From assembly GCA_016125185.1 (NCBI GenBank), contig WGMG01000009.1, positions 1-34,313 of the forward strand: 34,313 bases of DNA. The letters run 5' to 3'. A program made the translations under genes and the position numbers. This stretch comes from Armatimonadota bacterium. GTDB lineage: Bacteria > Armatimonadota > Fimbriimonadia > Fimbriimonadales > Fimbriimonadaceae. The notes below the pieces were generated by a model. It searched no databases and was not told the DNA's origin. It was given only the letters and a program-made list of their open reading frames with translations. This document shows, piece by piece, positions 16,821-21,831 of the stretch (positions within the stretch are counted from its first letter, which is position 1; the number at the start of each line of letters is the position of its first letter).

Positions 16821-17618
16821 ATGAATATGGAAGACACCGCGGTTTGGAAAGCGCTCGCCGACGAAACGCGACGAGGTCTGCTCGATAGCTTGAAAAATCG
16901 GCCGGCGACCACCGGCGAGCTCTGCGAAGAGTTCGCTCACTTGGATCGCTGTACGATCATGAAGCACCTCTGTGTGCTTGAGCATTCGAACCTCATCACG
17001 TTTCGGCGCGAAGGCCGAAACCGCATGAACTTCCTAAACCCGGTTCAACTCCAAAAGATACATACGCGGTGGCTGACCAGCTACACCGCGCAACGGGCCC
17101 AGAGCCTGCTGAATTTGAAGGAGCGAGCCGAGGGGGTTGCGCCCGCTATGCCAATGGAAAACACCACAACACTCGAAACACGCGCGGCAAAGTACGCGTT
17201 CGACGTCGACATCAAAGCGCCAAAGGAGAAGGTCTGGAACCTTCTCACCAACGACTCGTCCTGGTTTCCCGACGCCTACAACTCCAATCCGCGCACCAAA
17301 GGGTTCGTGATGGAGCAGAAGGTCGGGGGCATCTTTTACGAGGATTACGGTGACGGAAACGGGAAGATGATGGGAATGGTCGTCGGCCTCGACGTGCCAA
17401 ATCGCGTCCAGGTCCAGGGTCCGGTCACCACCGACTTCGGCGGTCCCGCCACCCACATGTTCACCATGGAACTGGTCGAGACCGCCGACGGCTGTACCTT
17501 CAAGTTCGACGACGCTCTGTTCGGCGTCTTCCCGGACGAGCTTCTTCAGGGTCGCCAAGGCGCCTTTAGGGACTTGTTCGGAACCCATCTGAAGGCGGCA
17601 GCCGAGAAGGCTCTTTAG
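16821..17618 (+). CDS. ArsR-type HTH fused to an SRPBCC (AHSA1-like) domain
   Basis: The 265-residue protein joins an ArsR-like winged helix (about 1-95: WKALADETRRGLLDSLKNRPATTGELCEEF... RCTIMKHLCVLE... FRREGRNRMNFLN) to an SRPBCC/AHSA1 ligand-binding domain (about 120-265: YAFDVDIKAPKEKVWNLLTND ... CTFKFDDALFG). No ArsR metal-binding cysteine cluster is evident. The likely signal is therefore a hydrophobic ligand bound in the SRPBCC cavity (inference). The palindrome directly before the ATG, and the absence of a Shine-Dalgarno, point to autoregulation and leaderless translation. ATG 16827 is an alternative start. Confidence 0.85.
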   Translation: MNMEDTAVWKALADETRRGLLDSLKNRPATTGELCEEFAHLDRCTIMKHLCVLEHSNLITFRREGRNRMNFLNPVQLQKIHTRWLTSYTAQRAQSLLNLKERAEGVAPAMPMENTTTLETRAAKYAFDVDIKAPKEKVWNLLTNDSSWFPDAYNSNPRTKGFVMEQKVGGIFYEDYGDGNGKMMGMVVGLDVPNRVQVQGPVTTDFGGPATHMFTMELVETADGCTFKFDDALFGVFPDELLQGRQGAFRDLFGTHLKAAAEKAL

Positions 17619-17627
17619 CCTCCGACC

Positions 17628-18245
17628 TTACTGGGCGATGATGTTGTCCTTCAGGCAGGACATCTGAACCGCAAACTCTTCGGGGGTGACCAGCTTGGTT
17701 TCGCCCTCGAAGTAGGTCACGCGCATGGGATCGTCGCCCGTGTCCTCATAGATATGAGTCCAAAACATCGGCATCGTCGGACAATTCCATGTCGAGGAAA
17801 GGGCAACATGAAACACGCCGAACCGGCTGGACGTGTTGTACGCCGAGCCCGTCATCGCCTTCCAACTGATGAAATTGTGATCGGACGGCTGGGCAACATC
17901 CGGCACCGTGTCGATATTCGACGTACACAGTTCGCTTCCCGTCGATTCGGCCAGGAGCGCGCAGGTTCCCGGATACCAGTAGTGGCTGAGGGCCAGATCG
18001 TCGGTCGGCATCTTGCGCACTGACATCAGGTAGCGGTCGTAGTCGCTAATTGAGCTCGGAAAGTGGTCGTCATTCTGTCCGGCGTAGAGACTCACCGCCC
18101 CAAACAGCTTGTGGAGCCGAGCCATCTCGTTGTCGTACTTCAGCTTGTACTTGATCTGGTTTGCTATCGGCTTTCCGATGGCGTAGGCGACAGCGATCAG
18201 CAGACAGGTCACCAACAGCTCCCCGAAAAATGTCGACCGCCTCAT
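17628..18245 (-). CDS. Pseudopilin-like secreted/membrane protein with degenerate prepilin signal
   Basis: From ATG 18245 this is a 205-residue protein. Its N-terminus (MRRSTFFGELLVTCLLIAVAYAIG) has the pilin-style basic start, a glutamate and a hydrophobic helix, but lacks the canonical G-F-T-L-I-E cleavage site. YLMSVRKM, HYWYPGTCALLAE and a YFEGETKLVTPEEF tail resemble the H-X9-DG/DUF1559 group of pilin-like proteins. An in-frame extension to 18296 is possible. It is the last gene of the 21389-17628 cluster and converges on the ArsR-SRPBCC gene. Function is unknown. Confidence 0.65.
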   Translation of the reverse strand: MRRSTFFGELLVTCLLIAVAYAIGKPIANQIKYKLKYDNEMARLHKLFGAVSLYAGQNDDHFPSSISDYDRYLMSVRKMPTDDLALSHYWYPGTCALLAESTGSELCTSNIDTVPDVAQPSDHNFISWKAMTGSAYNTSSRFGVFHVALSSTWNCPTMPMFWTHIYEDTGDDPMRVTYFEGETKLVTPEEFAVQMSCLKDNIIAQ

Positions 18246-18384
18246 ACCGATAATCCGTACTCCCGCCCAGGCCTTTAGACGCGATCGAAGCGCCAATGAT
18301 CCATCAGACGGACACCAGCAATATTATCGGCTATCGGCACGCCAAAAATGACGAAAGCCCTTTCCAATTTCGATATAAAGTAAT

Positions 18385-18843
18385 TTACGGGTGGCTCGTT
18401 CGTAAATCGTCGATAATAAGAACATTGCCGGTCCACACAGAGTCGAGTCGTGCTTGCGACCATATTTCGACATCCGAATCGTTGTCCTTAACATTTATGG
18501 AGCCATCTCTATTAGTACCTAGTACTGCGACAAAGTGTTCATTTTCCAACTCCACGATCGCACCAGAGTACTTGCTTAGCATTTGGGGACAACTAAAGTG
18601 AAAGCCGTTTAATTGGAATCCAAAGTGTTTCGCCGTGGTCTTTAACTGGTCAAAGCTGACCAATCCGTCCTTCGTTGAAATGTTAGCCATTACTTCATCG
18701 TACGAAACGGGCCTACCGCTTTTACGCAACAAGGCAGTCAAACTACTAACACCGCATTGAAGAGTATTAGTTGCATGTCCACAACCGCAAAGCAGGGCTA
18801 ATACTATTAATGATCCTTGCGCCTTCGAAAAACAACCTTCCAT
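18385..18843 (-). CDS. C39-like cysteine peptidase, probable lipoprotein
   Basis: Counted from the upstream ATG at 18849 (154 residues), a hydrophobic leader ends in a lipobox-like L-C-G-C23. The rest resembles a peptidase C39 domain: QCGVSSLTALLRKSG with candidate nucleophile C32, GLVSFDQLKTTAKHFGF, EHFVAVLG with H105, and INVKDND with D122 as the third residue. C39 domains cut after double-glycine leaders and are usually fused to ABC exporters. This one is stand-alone and apparently exported. The oxyanion Gln six residues before Cys is not evident (Ala there). The chosen ATG 18843 removes two residues. It overlaps the upstream gene's end by 37 bp. Confidence 0.72.
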   Translation of the reverse strand: MEGCFSKAQGSLIVLALLCGCGHATNTLQCGVSSLTALLRKSGRPVSYDEVMANISTKDGLVSFDQLKTTAKHFGFQLNGFHFSCPQMLSKYSGAIVELENEHFVAVLGTNRDGSINVKDNDSDVEIWSQARLDSVWTGNVLIIDDLRTSHP

Positions 18844-19841
18844 AAGCAAGCCAACAGTAGCCCCGAGCCGGAGAGCACGAAGATATTTCCCAGGGCAAGG
18901 GAACTCTTGCCTCCGCCTTTGTGTCCCGCTTCACCCCAGTATACGAGATCGCCGTTCGCAGCTACTTTATATAGTCGTCCATCATCGGACCCAATAGTGG
19001 CAGACACAGGCATTTTCGGCACATCCGAAGGCCAATCATTTCCTGAGTAGGGCCTTACATTAACCAAATCCACTTCTGATGCCGTTCCCTCAGCTAATTG
19101 ACTGCCGTTGAATACTCCACTCCAAATATTAGCGCTTTTGGCAACCCAAACTCCGCTTATACGAATAAATTCATTGATATGGTAGCCTGAACGAACATTC
19201 TTTTCACGCAGTTCAATAGCAGAAGCAAGCATACCCTTTGATCTTAAAAGTGTTATTGTAATGTCCTCTCCGCGGTATTTGCCGGTCACTTCTATGGATT
19301 CTCCGCGGTCGCTTACAACTGGGGAATCAATTTCGTCTAGATGCTTCTCTATGGTCCCTCGCACCCAAACTCGCCCGATAGCGCCACTTGCATAAGCGAC
19401 ATCCCATCTTTCATCCAAGAAACCCGTCAAAAAACTCTGGTGCCCTTTGTCTGTTTTGAACATTTCGTATTTCAAGACGCTCCCATCGTGCGGTTCATTG
19501 ATTAGTAATCTGGTACCAGGCTCAACGCCGGGTTTTGTCTCTCGCACTTGCTTTTCAACGATCCAATTGCTTCCATTCAAGAGCCACCTGTATGAGCCTT
19601 CAAAAGCAATTCCTTGCCCAACGGGATCACTCAGTTTGGGCGCTTGCACGCTAAAATACTTTGTTGTTACTGTAGCCTCACCAATAATCTGTGAGCTATT
19701 GTCTTGCGCTAGGGCAATCTGCTTTTGGATATCTTGAATGCTTAAGGCAAAGGCCAACTCCGGCAATACCAAGAGCCAGATGGCTATGGAAAATACCGGA
19801 ATTAGCCGCCGCCCTCCAATTTTCATTGGAGGGTGAATCAT
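18807..19841 (-). CDS. Exported protein with C-terminal membrane anchor, function unknown
   Basis: This 344-residue protein begins with a signal peptide (GGRRLIPVFSIAIWLLVLPELAFA) and has a soluble, beta-rich body. It ends in a hydrophobic segment (LALGNIFVLSGSGLLLACLWKVVF) followed by RRRKDH, which fits a type I membrane protein facing the periplasm or cell surface. I recognise no family; the repeated beta-strand pattern loosely recalls LolA/LolB-like lipid carriers, but without a clear motif. The start (ATG 19841) shares one base with the stop of the cysteine-rich gene (TAATG), so translation is coupled. ATG 19826 is an alternative start. Confidence 0.68.
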   Translation of the reverse strand: MIHPPMKIGGRRLIPVFSIAIWLLVLPELAFALSIQDIQKQIALAQDNSSQIIGEATVTTKYFSVQAPKLSDPVGQGIAFEGSYRWLLNGSNWIVEKQVRETKPGVEPGTRLLINEPHDGSVLKYEMFKTDKGHQSFLTGFLDERWDVAYASGAIGRVWVRGTIEKHLDEIDSPVVSDRGESIEVTGKYRGEDITITLLRSKGMLASAIELREKNVRSGYHINEFIRISGVWVAKSANIWSGVFNGSQLAEGTASEVDLVNVRPYSGNDWPSDVPKMPVSATIGSDDGRLYKVAANGDLVYWGEAGHKGGGKSSLALGNIFVLSGSGLLLACLWKVVFRRRKDH

Positions 19842-20266
19842 TAGGAACCGCCCGAGGGAGGTGTATCGATGACGCAGGTCGAGGAAGTTGTGTAATCAGT
19901 CCTCGACACGGTCGTGCAAGCGGAGTCCGCGTAATACATCACCTCATTGCACGCTACGTCCGGCAGTGCAACACAAGTGTCAGAGCCTAAAGCCCATCCG
20001 CATTCAAGGTGACTATGCCAGACCTGCTTGTAGTAGATGTTGATTCCAAATTCATCGGTCCCGTAATACGTACATGGCACGGGCTGCTCATTGCAACCAA
20101 GTCGGCACGTTGAACCCGCCCCTCTGGTCAGGTTCATTTCAGCACGTGTCAACGGCCGACTTGTTGGCGAGTTGCTTTCAGTCTGCCTTGGCATTGTCGA
20201 GTATCCTGTGGCAACTAGACAAACCAGGGGTAAAACTATCACTATGTTAGTTATATTTCTCTTCAT
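19841..20266 (-). CDS. Exported cysteine-rich protein with double-glycine-like cleavage motif
   Basis: A 141-residue protein. Residues 4-22 form a hydrophobic signal segment, followed by a Ser/Thr/Pro-rich linker (25-38). Then comes PLTRAEMNLTRGAG, which matches the double-glycine leader pattern: L39 (-12), T40 (-11), E43 (-8), M44 (-7), G49 (-2), A50 (-1). The remaining 91 residues contain eight cysteines (C54 onward), enough for four disulfides. The neighbouring C39-like peptidase and MauE-like protein would suit a protein that is cleaved and oxidised outside the cytoplasm. No family is recognised. It sits between mauE-like and the anchored exported protein, with 11 bp and 1 bp junctions. 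Confidence 0.7.
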   Translation of the reverse strand: MKRNITNIVIVLPLVCLVATGYSTMPRQTESNSPTSRPLTRAEMNLTRGAGSTCRLGCNEQPVPCTYYGTDEFGINIYYKQVWHSHLECGWALGSDTCVALPDVACNEVMYYADSACTTVSRTDYTTSSTCVIDTPPSGGS

Positions 20267-20277
20267 GTTTCCTATTC

Positions 20278-20721
20278 TCAGTTAGAGATGTGTTGAGTTA
20301 CGTGTAAATTCCTCAAGCACTGAAAGGCAAGGGCACACGTAAGAACCGCAAAAGTTGCTGACTGCCATGGCGCAAGTTTTAGAAGGGCCCCAAAGCATGA
20401 GCACGGTGCCTTCAGATCTTGCAACCACCGCCAAAGGGAGTACCCAAACAGTAGCGATGAAAAGCCAGCGTAAGTGACGAATCCAAATGAAAGCGTTTTC
20501 CTAAGCATCAGAAGTACGGAGATCAGAAGTTCAACGAAAATTACACTATAAGCGACGACCTTAACTAATAGCGGCGGAAACAGACCAGACCTATCAATAG
20601 TTGCAATGATCTCCTGAGGATGCTGAACCTTCGTAATTGCAGCGACAATCATGACACCACCTAGGAAAATTCTTGAAGCGGGAACTACCCACCTCCATTT
20701 GGATTTCAGTACGAGCGCCAC
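20278..20721 (-). CDS. MauE/DoxX-like redox-associated membrane protein
   Basis: This 147-residue membrane protein has about four transmembrane segments: RIFLGGVMIVAAITKVQHP, VKVVAYSVIFVELLISVLLML, FVTYAGFSSLLFGYSLWRW and SATFAVLTCALAFQCL. The PCSCFG motif (C107, C109) before the last helix is typical of MauE/DoxX-type proteins that pass reducing or oxidising equivalents across the membrane. It is a good candidate for helping disulfide formation in the eight-cysteine product of the next gene. Its start overlaps the prepilin-like gene by 16 bp. Confidence 0.82.
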   Translation of the reverse strand: MALVLKSKWRWVVPASRIFLGGVMIVAAITKVQHPQEIIATIDRSGLFPPLLVKVVAYSVIFVELLISVLLMLRKTLSFGFVTYAGFSSLLFGYSLWRWLQDLKAPCSCFGALLKLAPWQSATFAVLTCALAFQCLRNLHVTQHISN

Positions 20722-21389
20722 GCCACCTCTAAGCCGGAGTGAGTCAACAACTTGACATGCCCGTCGGCGAAAGCAATCTCGTACCGATAATCGAACACTT
20801 TAGCCTGAAAGTCGTCCAGGCTATCTGATGCCAGCGCAACGAGAGAAGTCCCATGCCAGTGACCAGCCAGATCGGCCAAAGTATTTACCTTCGATGGGTC
20901 CTTAAGCCCCGTGTCTTGCGCACCCACCAAACCAAGTTCTGTTCGATACTCGTAGCTGCTACCACATGCCTCATAGACAGACGGAGTAAACTCCATTTTC
21001 TCAGGAAAGGCGCTTTCTACGACATTGGTACCTGAATCTTCAGGGCAGCGAAAAGTTGCAAAGGATTTAGTGTATGGCATAAGGATGTGATGCAATAGCG
21101 GCACCGATTCAATTTGAGCCGCGGGCGGGAAGGATCCTGGACGCACCAAATCAGCGCAATCTTTTCCTCTGGGAAAGACATTGTCATTGTCGGCTGAATA
21201 TAGTAGAATTGCATTGCTTATTTGGGACAGATTTGCAGTGCATACTGTTCTTTTAGAGGCTCGTTTAGCAGAAGTAATTACTGGCATCAGGAGTCCGGTC
21301 AGGATAAGAAGCACGCTGACGACAATCATTAATTCTATCATTGTGAAACCACTCACTTCCCCTCTCTTGGTCTTACGTACAGCAGACAT
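20706..21389 (-). CDS. Prepilin-type N-terminal cleavage domain protein (DUF1559/H-X9-DG-like)
   Basis: From ATG 21389 this is a 227-residue protein with a canonical class III signal (G14-F15-T-M-I-E19 followed by LMIVVSVLLILTGLLMPVI) for prepilin peptidase. The body contains NLSQISNAILLYSADND, and the C-terminus reads AFADGHVKLL, as in the prepilin-associated H-X9-DG proteins abundant in planctomycetes and armatimonads. The His of H-X9-DG appears replaced by Phe. A longer frame to 21461 is possible. It is the first gene of the cluster. A pilus or type II-like assembly is needed for such proteins and is not encoded here. Confidence 0.85.
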   Translation of the reverse strand: MSAVRKTKRGEVSGFTMIELMIVVSVLLILTGLLMPVITSAKRASKRTVCTANLSQISNAILLYSADNDNVFPRGKDCADLVRPGSFPPAAQIESVPLLHHILMPYTKSFATFRCPEDSGTNVVESAFPEKMEFTPSVYEACGSSYEYRTELGLVGAQDTGLKDPSKVNTLADLAGHWHGTSLVALASDSLDDFQAKVFDYRYEIAFADGHVKLLTHSGLEVAWRSY

Positions 21390-21769
21390 CGCCCTATAAC
21401 TCACGCTCCAGCATTTTCGTGCCTTCTTTCTTCCTCGCACGGTACCAACAACACGGGACAAGTTGTACCCTTCAAATAGAAATCAACACGTGATTGACAT
21501 TATAACGTATTTTCCAGGAAATTATCGCAATTGCAGCATTTTTGATTCTTTGTGAATTGAACAGTCGGCAGGCGAGGTTCCATGTTACAGTCGTTGGCAA
21601 CAAGTCGCCCTGTAACACATGAGAAGGTTATCTCCAAAGTGCTTGATCTTCCCTCGGGCAACAACCAGAGTGCCTTGACCTCAAGCCAAGGACTGAAGCT
21701 CACAGATGTTAGCCGAAAGCTGAATTGAGCGACAAGTGATTTGAAGCTTCCAATGATTTTTCCTTCTGA
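21390..21769. other. AT-rich intergenic region upstream of the accessory cluster
   Basis: This 380-bp gap presumably contains the promoter of the accessory operon reading leftward, but no single -35/-10 pair stands out. A minus-strand open frame of about 100 codons (21500-21811) includes CCNC and looks beta-rich. Its only ATG lies in the rpsI hairpin and it has no Shine-Dalgarno, so I do not call it a gene. It may be a decayed fragment. Confidence 0.4.
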
Positions 21770-21813
21770 TAATGTATTACGGGCCCACACAGAAGAGGGC
21801 CCGTAATACATTA
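21770..21813. terminator. 17-bp perfect inverted repeat after rpsI
   Basis: Arms 21770-21786 and 21797-21813 are perfect reverse complements of 17 bp (core GGGCCCGTAATACATTA) around a 10-nt loop. The hairpin lies 18 bases past the rpsI stop and probably terminates or stabilises the ribosomal transcript. Neither strand has a T run next to it, so it is not a standard intrinsic terminator. Confidence 0.6.
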
Positions 21814-21831
21814 TCGAGTAGGACTGAGTTC

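Follow-up and report, generated by a model that had tools for sequence, protein, structure and literature searches.

A probable extracytoplasmic double-glycine maturation cassette with an exported C39 peptidase in Armatimonadota

The stretch of DNA analysed here (the window) comprises 34,313 nucleotides of contig WGMG01000009.1 from an Armatimonadota bacterium of the family Fimbriimonadaceae. Its minus strand carries a five-gene cassette, with genes for an exported C39 peptidase and a cysteine-rich precursor with a double-glycine leader, that in our view is likely to be an extracytoplasmic double-glycine maturation unit. C39 peptidases, best known for trimming bacteriocins at the membrane's inner face, are together with double-glycine leaders the textbook partners of ATP-binding cassette (ABC) exporters. 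The case for the present reading is made by gene linkage, conservation of the leader, catalytic residues, natural fusions and the predicted folds of fused relatives. The six open reading frames (ORFs) that a preliminary description of this DNA had treated as one leftward block are present, much where it placed them. Five of them overlap or nearly touch, with in order a 16-nt overlap, an 11-nt gap, a 1-nt overlap and a 43-nt overlap, and these five are the cassette; the sixth (17628-18296) lies outside it. The features of the cassette are:

20706..21389, minus strand: prepilin-like protein of the DUF1559 type with an N-terminal methylation motif, an optional part of the cassette
20278..20721, minus strand: MauE/DoxX-family redox membrane protein with a CxC motif (PCSCFG); PF07291, E=1.6e-19
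19841..20266, minus strand: cysteine-rich pre-pro-protein with a Sec-type signal, a pro-region containing the leader and an 8-Cys mature part; the proposed C39 substrate
20117..20152, minus strand: double-glycine leader LTRAEMNLTRGA, positions -12 to -1, followed by GSTC; 6/6 consensus positions
18807..19841, minus strand: exported protein, probably LolA-like, with a C-terminal transmembrane anchor; assigned from the model of a LolA-C39 fusion in relatives
18385..18849, minus strand: exported stand-alone C39 peptidase with an N-terminal signal or anchor; PF03412, E=4.9e-13

The peptidase stands alone as a protein of 154 aa, and none of the cluster's proteins has an ABC transporter domain. The PF03412 match covers the whole domain and includes the catalytic residues C32 (Cys codon 18754-18756) and H105 (His codon 18535-18537), and in 14 aligned C39 members (alignment A1) the Cys, a Gly and the His are invariant. 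In the PDB, a C39 profile built on A1 matched PCAT1, LahT and ComA (1e-19 to 1e-14) and also HlyB. The hydrophobic N-terminal segment of the window protein is a predicted export signal, and in some other members a lone hydrophobic anchor is present at the N-terminus. The protein was earlier called a C39 peptidase with a lipobox; the family assignment holds, but the lipobox (LCGC) is imperfect, so that “exported, membrane-associated” is a safer wording than “lipoprotein”. The lipobox of a relative in G083 does fit the consensus (LTGC).

The cysteine-rich protein, earlier described as secreted, has a predicted Sec-type signal (signal peptides were called here from hydrophobicity alone) and 8 Cys beyond the signal region. 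What had been overlooked is that the signal is followed by a canonical double-glycine leader, LTRAEMNLTRGA, directly before GSTC. The C39 domains of ABC exporters (ComA, LahT) recognise L-12, E-8, L-7 and V-4 and then GG, GA or GS (PMC6363468), and across 40 precursors positions -12, -8, -7, -4, -2 and -1 agree with this consensus. The residues found are L33/M3 at -12, S17/T14 at -11, E24/D6 at -8, M24/L7/I1 at -7, V14/I12/A7/L3 at -4, G36 at -2 and G21/A10/S3 at -1. The mean score was 5.15 of 6 for the 40 precursors against 3.36 for composition-matched shuffles, and the window leader scores 6/6 with a set that admitted Thr at -4; as the scored set drew on the literature pattern and on early loci, these scores describe the leader rather than prove it. 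As a control, the fetched loci contain 170 Sec-like ORFs; 11 of them score 6/6, and 10 of these 11 are C39 partners. A relative in an uncultured Armatimonadetes assembly (G019, CAIUHP010000085.1) has LTLGEMKAAQGA followed by GSVC.

Neither the cysteine-rich protein nor the anchored protein gave anything above cut-off in Pfam or NCBIfam, and the same is true of the sixth gene. An NCBIfam scan of eight precursors at E<=10 listed no bacteriocin-leader model and one weak match, TIGR04149 at E=0.27, with the proviso that the filters often lose short models. Two other assignments were considered and rejected. A Cys at +1 after the double glycine would resemble a lipobox, but it is present in only 9 of the 40 precursors and the window protein has its Cys at +4, so the proteins are not in general lipoproteins. 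Membership of the Bacteroidetes NVEALA family (PF14055) was rejected since there is no PF14055 match in the window genome, while a Bacteroides control was matched; a search of the open-licence literature for NVEALA gave no paper.

The linkage of these genes was surveyed in 291 Armatimonadota genomes, 101 of which have matches to the C39 profile, ABC exporters and TPR- or RHS-associated forms included. For 31 of the 33 best matches, all scoring 95.9 bits or more, there is a cysteine-rich gene with the leader or a near-variant within about 4.5 kb; one of these genes (G073) is broken by an in-frame stop that falls between signal and leader. The usual order is precursor, LolA-like, C39, and the precursor gene lies upstream of the LolA-like gene in nearly every case; the two exceptions among the 33 are G083, in which a transposase-like ORF occupies the precursor position, and G206. 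The first dozen loci were used to define the leader motif, but about half of the neighbourhoods (L082-L097) were chosen afterwards by C39 profile score alone, and for these the co-occurrence is thus not built in. It had been suggested that homologues be checked for scattered, unlinked occurrence in other genomes, and we find that they stay together across the phylum. All five genes are collinear in G144 (CP054189.1, Chthonomonadaceae) and in G145, between fusA and tufA; G072, of another family, has MauE, cysteine-rich, LolA-like and C39 genes, and G019 has the last three, its contig ending upstream. We found no description of the cassette in the open-licence papers searched.

Two further observations concern the settings of these clusters. 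The G144 cassette (L039 6164-9050) is inserted within the str operon. Genes that by eye resemble DUF2079-like multi-membrane glycosyltransferases directly follow C39 in three clusters (L065 6424-8091, L062 5254-6909, L040 2633-5893), and a link to glycosylation is possible.

The exported protein was also rightly described as anchored, having a C-terminal transmembrane segment, and it matches no family. Its relatives give weak DUF2092 or LolA_like matches. In four loci (L024, L068, L083, L089) a LolA-like domain is fused to C39, and the model of the L068 fusion (predicted local distance difference test score, pLDDT, 81) matches LolA-family structures at Z 14.8-16.5, the best for its LolA half being LolA3 of P. 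gingivalis (Z 16.5, Foldseek 3e-10), and the ComA, LahT and PCAT1 peptidases at Z about 14-17 with its other half. On the basis of these models the window protein is probably LolA-like. Another fusion, in L069, has C39 with a DUF1573 tail (E=2.7e-16 for DUF1573), and no plasmid-borne relatives of a C39-DUF1573 protein were found.

The identification of the second gene as a MauE/DoxX-like redox protein is confirmed, with 70.9 bits for PF07291 against a gathering score of 27 and the CxC motif. MauE adjoins the cysteine-rich gene in the window, G144/G145, G055, G072, G073 and G114, and proteins of the VKOR-DsbA type take its place in G012 (L024) and in the second G144 cluster (L093). This exchange supports a disulfide step, and disulfide supply is the probable role of MauE. 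The latter two clusters (L024 2492-8387, L093 4240-8481) are a parallel type of cassette, in which VKOR-DsbA and a DUF1573-like protein replace MauE.

We propose that Sec would carry the cysteine-rich protein across the membrane, where signal peptidase would remove its signal and its disulfides would be formed with the aid of MauE or, in some relatives, of VKOR-DsbA. The exported C39, acting with the membrane-anchored LolA-like protein as a putative escort, would then recognise the remaining L-x3-E-M-x4-G-A leader and cut after it, and the mature protein would be freed at the outer face of the membrane, perhaps as a small secreted or surface protein. The steps may occur in this order. Of the single pathway envisaged before, export, disulfide formation and C39 cleavage are thus retained, backed by the linkage, the fusions and the C39-type leader, and the sixth gene and a general role for pilins are not.

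A second class of possible substrates was also found. Exported C39 proteins with lower scores, most of which have a TPR-like region at the N-terminus, adjoin RHS/YD-repeat proteins. In 10 of 10 such loci examined, the same type of leader comes after a Sec-like signal, as in LSPTEMKQISGA, LTNAEMGRLMGA and LTAEELRGYKGK; in one locus it is carried by a small ORF that immediately precedes the RHS gene. In the window's own genome a TPR-C39 gene lies beside one for an RHS/YD-repeat protein with the leader-like LSAKTMKTAQGK after its signal (L117 4701-5723, 245-4498; G000:C2:465000-475000), and this pairing is found also in nine other loci (L067, L100, L111-L116, L118). We lean slightly towards the more general view that in Armatimonadota exported C39 serves as a post-Sec maturation enzyme, acting outside the cytoplasm on Sec-preceded double-glycine leaders of at least two unrelated classes of protein, the small cysteine-rich and the giant RHS/YD-repeat proteins, with a LolA-like or TPR partner in place of the ABC transporter. 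In two loci (L071 7091-11296, L072 3021-8306) a C39 domain lies within a giant YD-repeat protein, which suggests a cis version of the pairing.

With regard to the boundaries of the cassette, two further features of the window are relevant:

17628..18296, minus strand: pseudopilin-like gene, outside the cassette on synteny and G+C content (GC)
21768..21815, no strand assigned: perfect 19-nt inverted repeat with a 10-nt loop, after rpsI

The cassette follows rplM-rpsI, and the inverted repeat is probably the end of the ribosomal operon, parting it from the cassette. A scan for promoters and terminators found sites no more often than in shuffled sequences. The block was described as AT-richer than its flanks, and this is so for the five genes (44-51% GC, against 55-59% for rplM, rpsI, PadR and methyltransferase genes) but not for the sixth, which at 56.7% resembles the flanks. 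The sixth gene begins 88 nt beyond the C39 gene, resembles prepilins in its N-terminal segment only and lacks the GFTxxE prepilin motif. Its sole clear ortholog, in G009 (48% identity), adjoins the same methyltransferase, PadR and membrane-protein genes at a locus without a C39 cluster, and the gene therefore belongs to the downstream synteny block. Its proposed membership of the system as a second pseudopilin is accordingly ruled out by synteny and GC. Convergent with it is a gene (16821-17618) for what by eye is an ArsR-like regulator fused to an SRPBCC-like domain.

The first gene is prepilin-like as described, with a SBP_bac_10/DUF1559 match (E=4e-5), a GFTxxE cleavage/methylation motif and 20.4 bits for TIGR02532 against a cut-off of 16.3, Pfam N_methyl being slightly under its cut-off. 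It has a counterpart of 40% identity in the same position in G144/G145.

Several observations weigh against the proposed maturation unit. The leaders in G144/G145, G012 and G072 (PGTIDARVAIGS; LAEDEAGNIAGQ; LTKAEMNCSAGK) are degenerate, scoring 4/6 and singly no better than shuffles. G206 has a LolA-C39 gene with no cysteine-rich gene visible nearby, and G114 (L103 1155-3200) has MauE, cysteine-rich and LolA-like genes but no C39, its leader being degenerate (PTPNDINPGGGA); co-loss of C39 and leader is possible in this case. The catalytic Asp is common among the C39 relatives but not strictly conserved. The window LolA-like protein, modelled alone with AlphaFold, gave a poor model (pLDDT 55) with LolA NE2245 as best match at Z 8.4. 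In G072/G073 MauE has lost its CxC (PANGFG; L040 8041-8562, L043 6703-7230) although its neighbour is still cysteine-rich, which means that the redox step is not shared by all, and in many clusters no redox gene adjoins.

Three other explanations have to be set beside the maturation unit. The C39-like protein could be a non-cleaving chaperone, like the C39-like domain of HlyB, that binds the leader and holds the cysteine-rich protein for folding or for transfer by the LolA-like protein; inactive C39-like domains exist in type 1 secretion (PMC5557850) and our profile did match HlyB, but degenerate domains lose the Cys, whereas here Cys and His are invariant in the 14 aligned members and most precursors keep a cleavage-type G-[GAS] end, and we think this improbable. 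Alternatively the leader could be unconnected with C39, being just a pro-region that recurs or a second portion of the signal peptide, and horizontal transfer of the block would account for the adjacency. The patchy distribution in the genus, where among 20 genomes the cysteine-rich gene is in the window genome, G019 and as a variant in G012, and the low GC, which suggests transfer, would fit this. However the same leader is carried by the unrelated RHS/YD-repeat proteins beside other exported C39 genes and is nearly absent from other Sec-like ORFs, and we give the explanation very little credence.

The remaining alternative is that prepilins and pseudopilins form a pilus-like machine that pushes out the cysteine-rich protein, in line with the display or secretion role for pilins proposed in the preliminary description. 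A prepilin gene is indeed directly upstream in the window and in G144/G145, and G055, G083 and the second G144 cluster also have prepilin genes close by. Most clusters however have no prepilin and the sixth gene is unlinked; genomes across the phylum hold many prepilin paralogs, so that chance adjacency is likely. A general pilin role is not borne out, and such a machine is most unlikely. The maturation unit remains our preferred explanation: Sec-type signals on both partners, with no ABC transporter, would separate leader processing from transport, and substrates with a canonical site offer a candidate answer to what periplasmic C39 enzymes such as FapD cleave. The data also point to disulfide-rich secreted proteins throughout the phylum, of which we found no description in the open-licence literature.

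With regard to known systems, an exporter-free, Sec-exported C39 had been thought new, but FapD of the Pseudomonas fap amyloid system already fits that description, being a C39 that reaches the periplasm by Sec and on which secretion of the Fap amyloid depends; its catalytic Cys is required for secretion of its partner, its substrate is undetermined, and the Fap proteins lack a canonical C39 leader (PMC5557850, PMC6173800). The window C39 is like FapD in having its own (predicted) Sec signal and no ABC partner gene in the cluster. It differs in that its Sec-exported partner bears a canonical leader, and no cysteine-rich precursor or LolA-like partner has been described for FapD. No FapF pore or Fap amyloid subunit family was matched among the six window proteins, although no dedicated Fap model was run. 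With the PCAT/AMS exporters (ComA, LahT, PCAT1) the window proteins share the C39 fold, the catalytic Cys and His and the six leader positions, but the window cluster has no ABC transporter, and the mature product, with its 8 Cys, is roughly 90 residues long. Since Sec appears to be the route for the peptidase and its substrate alike, the cut would be made outside the cytoplasm. FilB, a putative pilus-system C39 (NCBIfam NF050078), is likewise pilus-associated and outside an ABC exporter, but the window C39 matches NF050078 only at E=0.07, far below cut-off. The LolA/LolB carriers (and DUF2092, DUF1329) probably resemble the partner in predicted fold, most clearly in the LolA-C39 fusions, whereas the window protein is anchored in the membrane at its C-terminus and is linked to a peptidase and a putative cysteine-rich substrate that is not lipoprotein-like. 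In the case of the MauE/DoxX and VKOR-DsbA systems there is the family match, the CxC and the presence of VKOR-DsbA in the same place in two relatives, but here the protein is in a peptide cassette and not with methylamine dehydrogenase or general folding, and G072/G073 have lost the CxC. What appears to be new is the pairing, across the phylum, of an exported C39 with a LolA-like protein and with partners that are themselves exported by Sec and bear the canonical leader.

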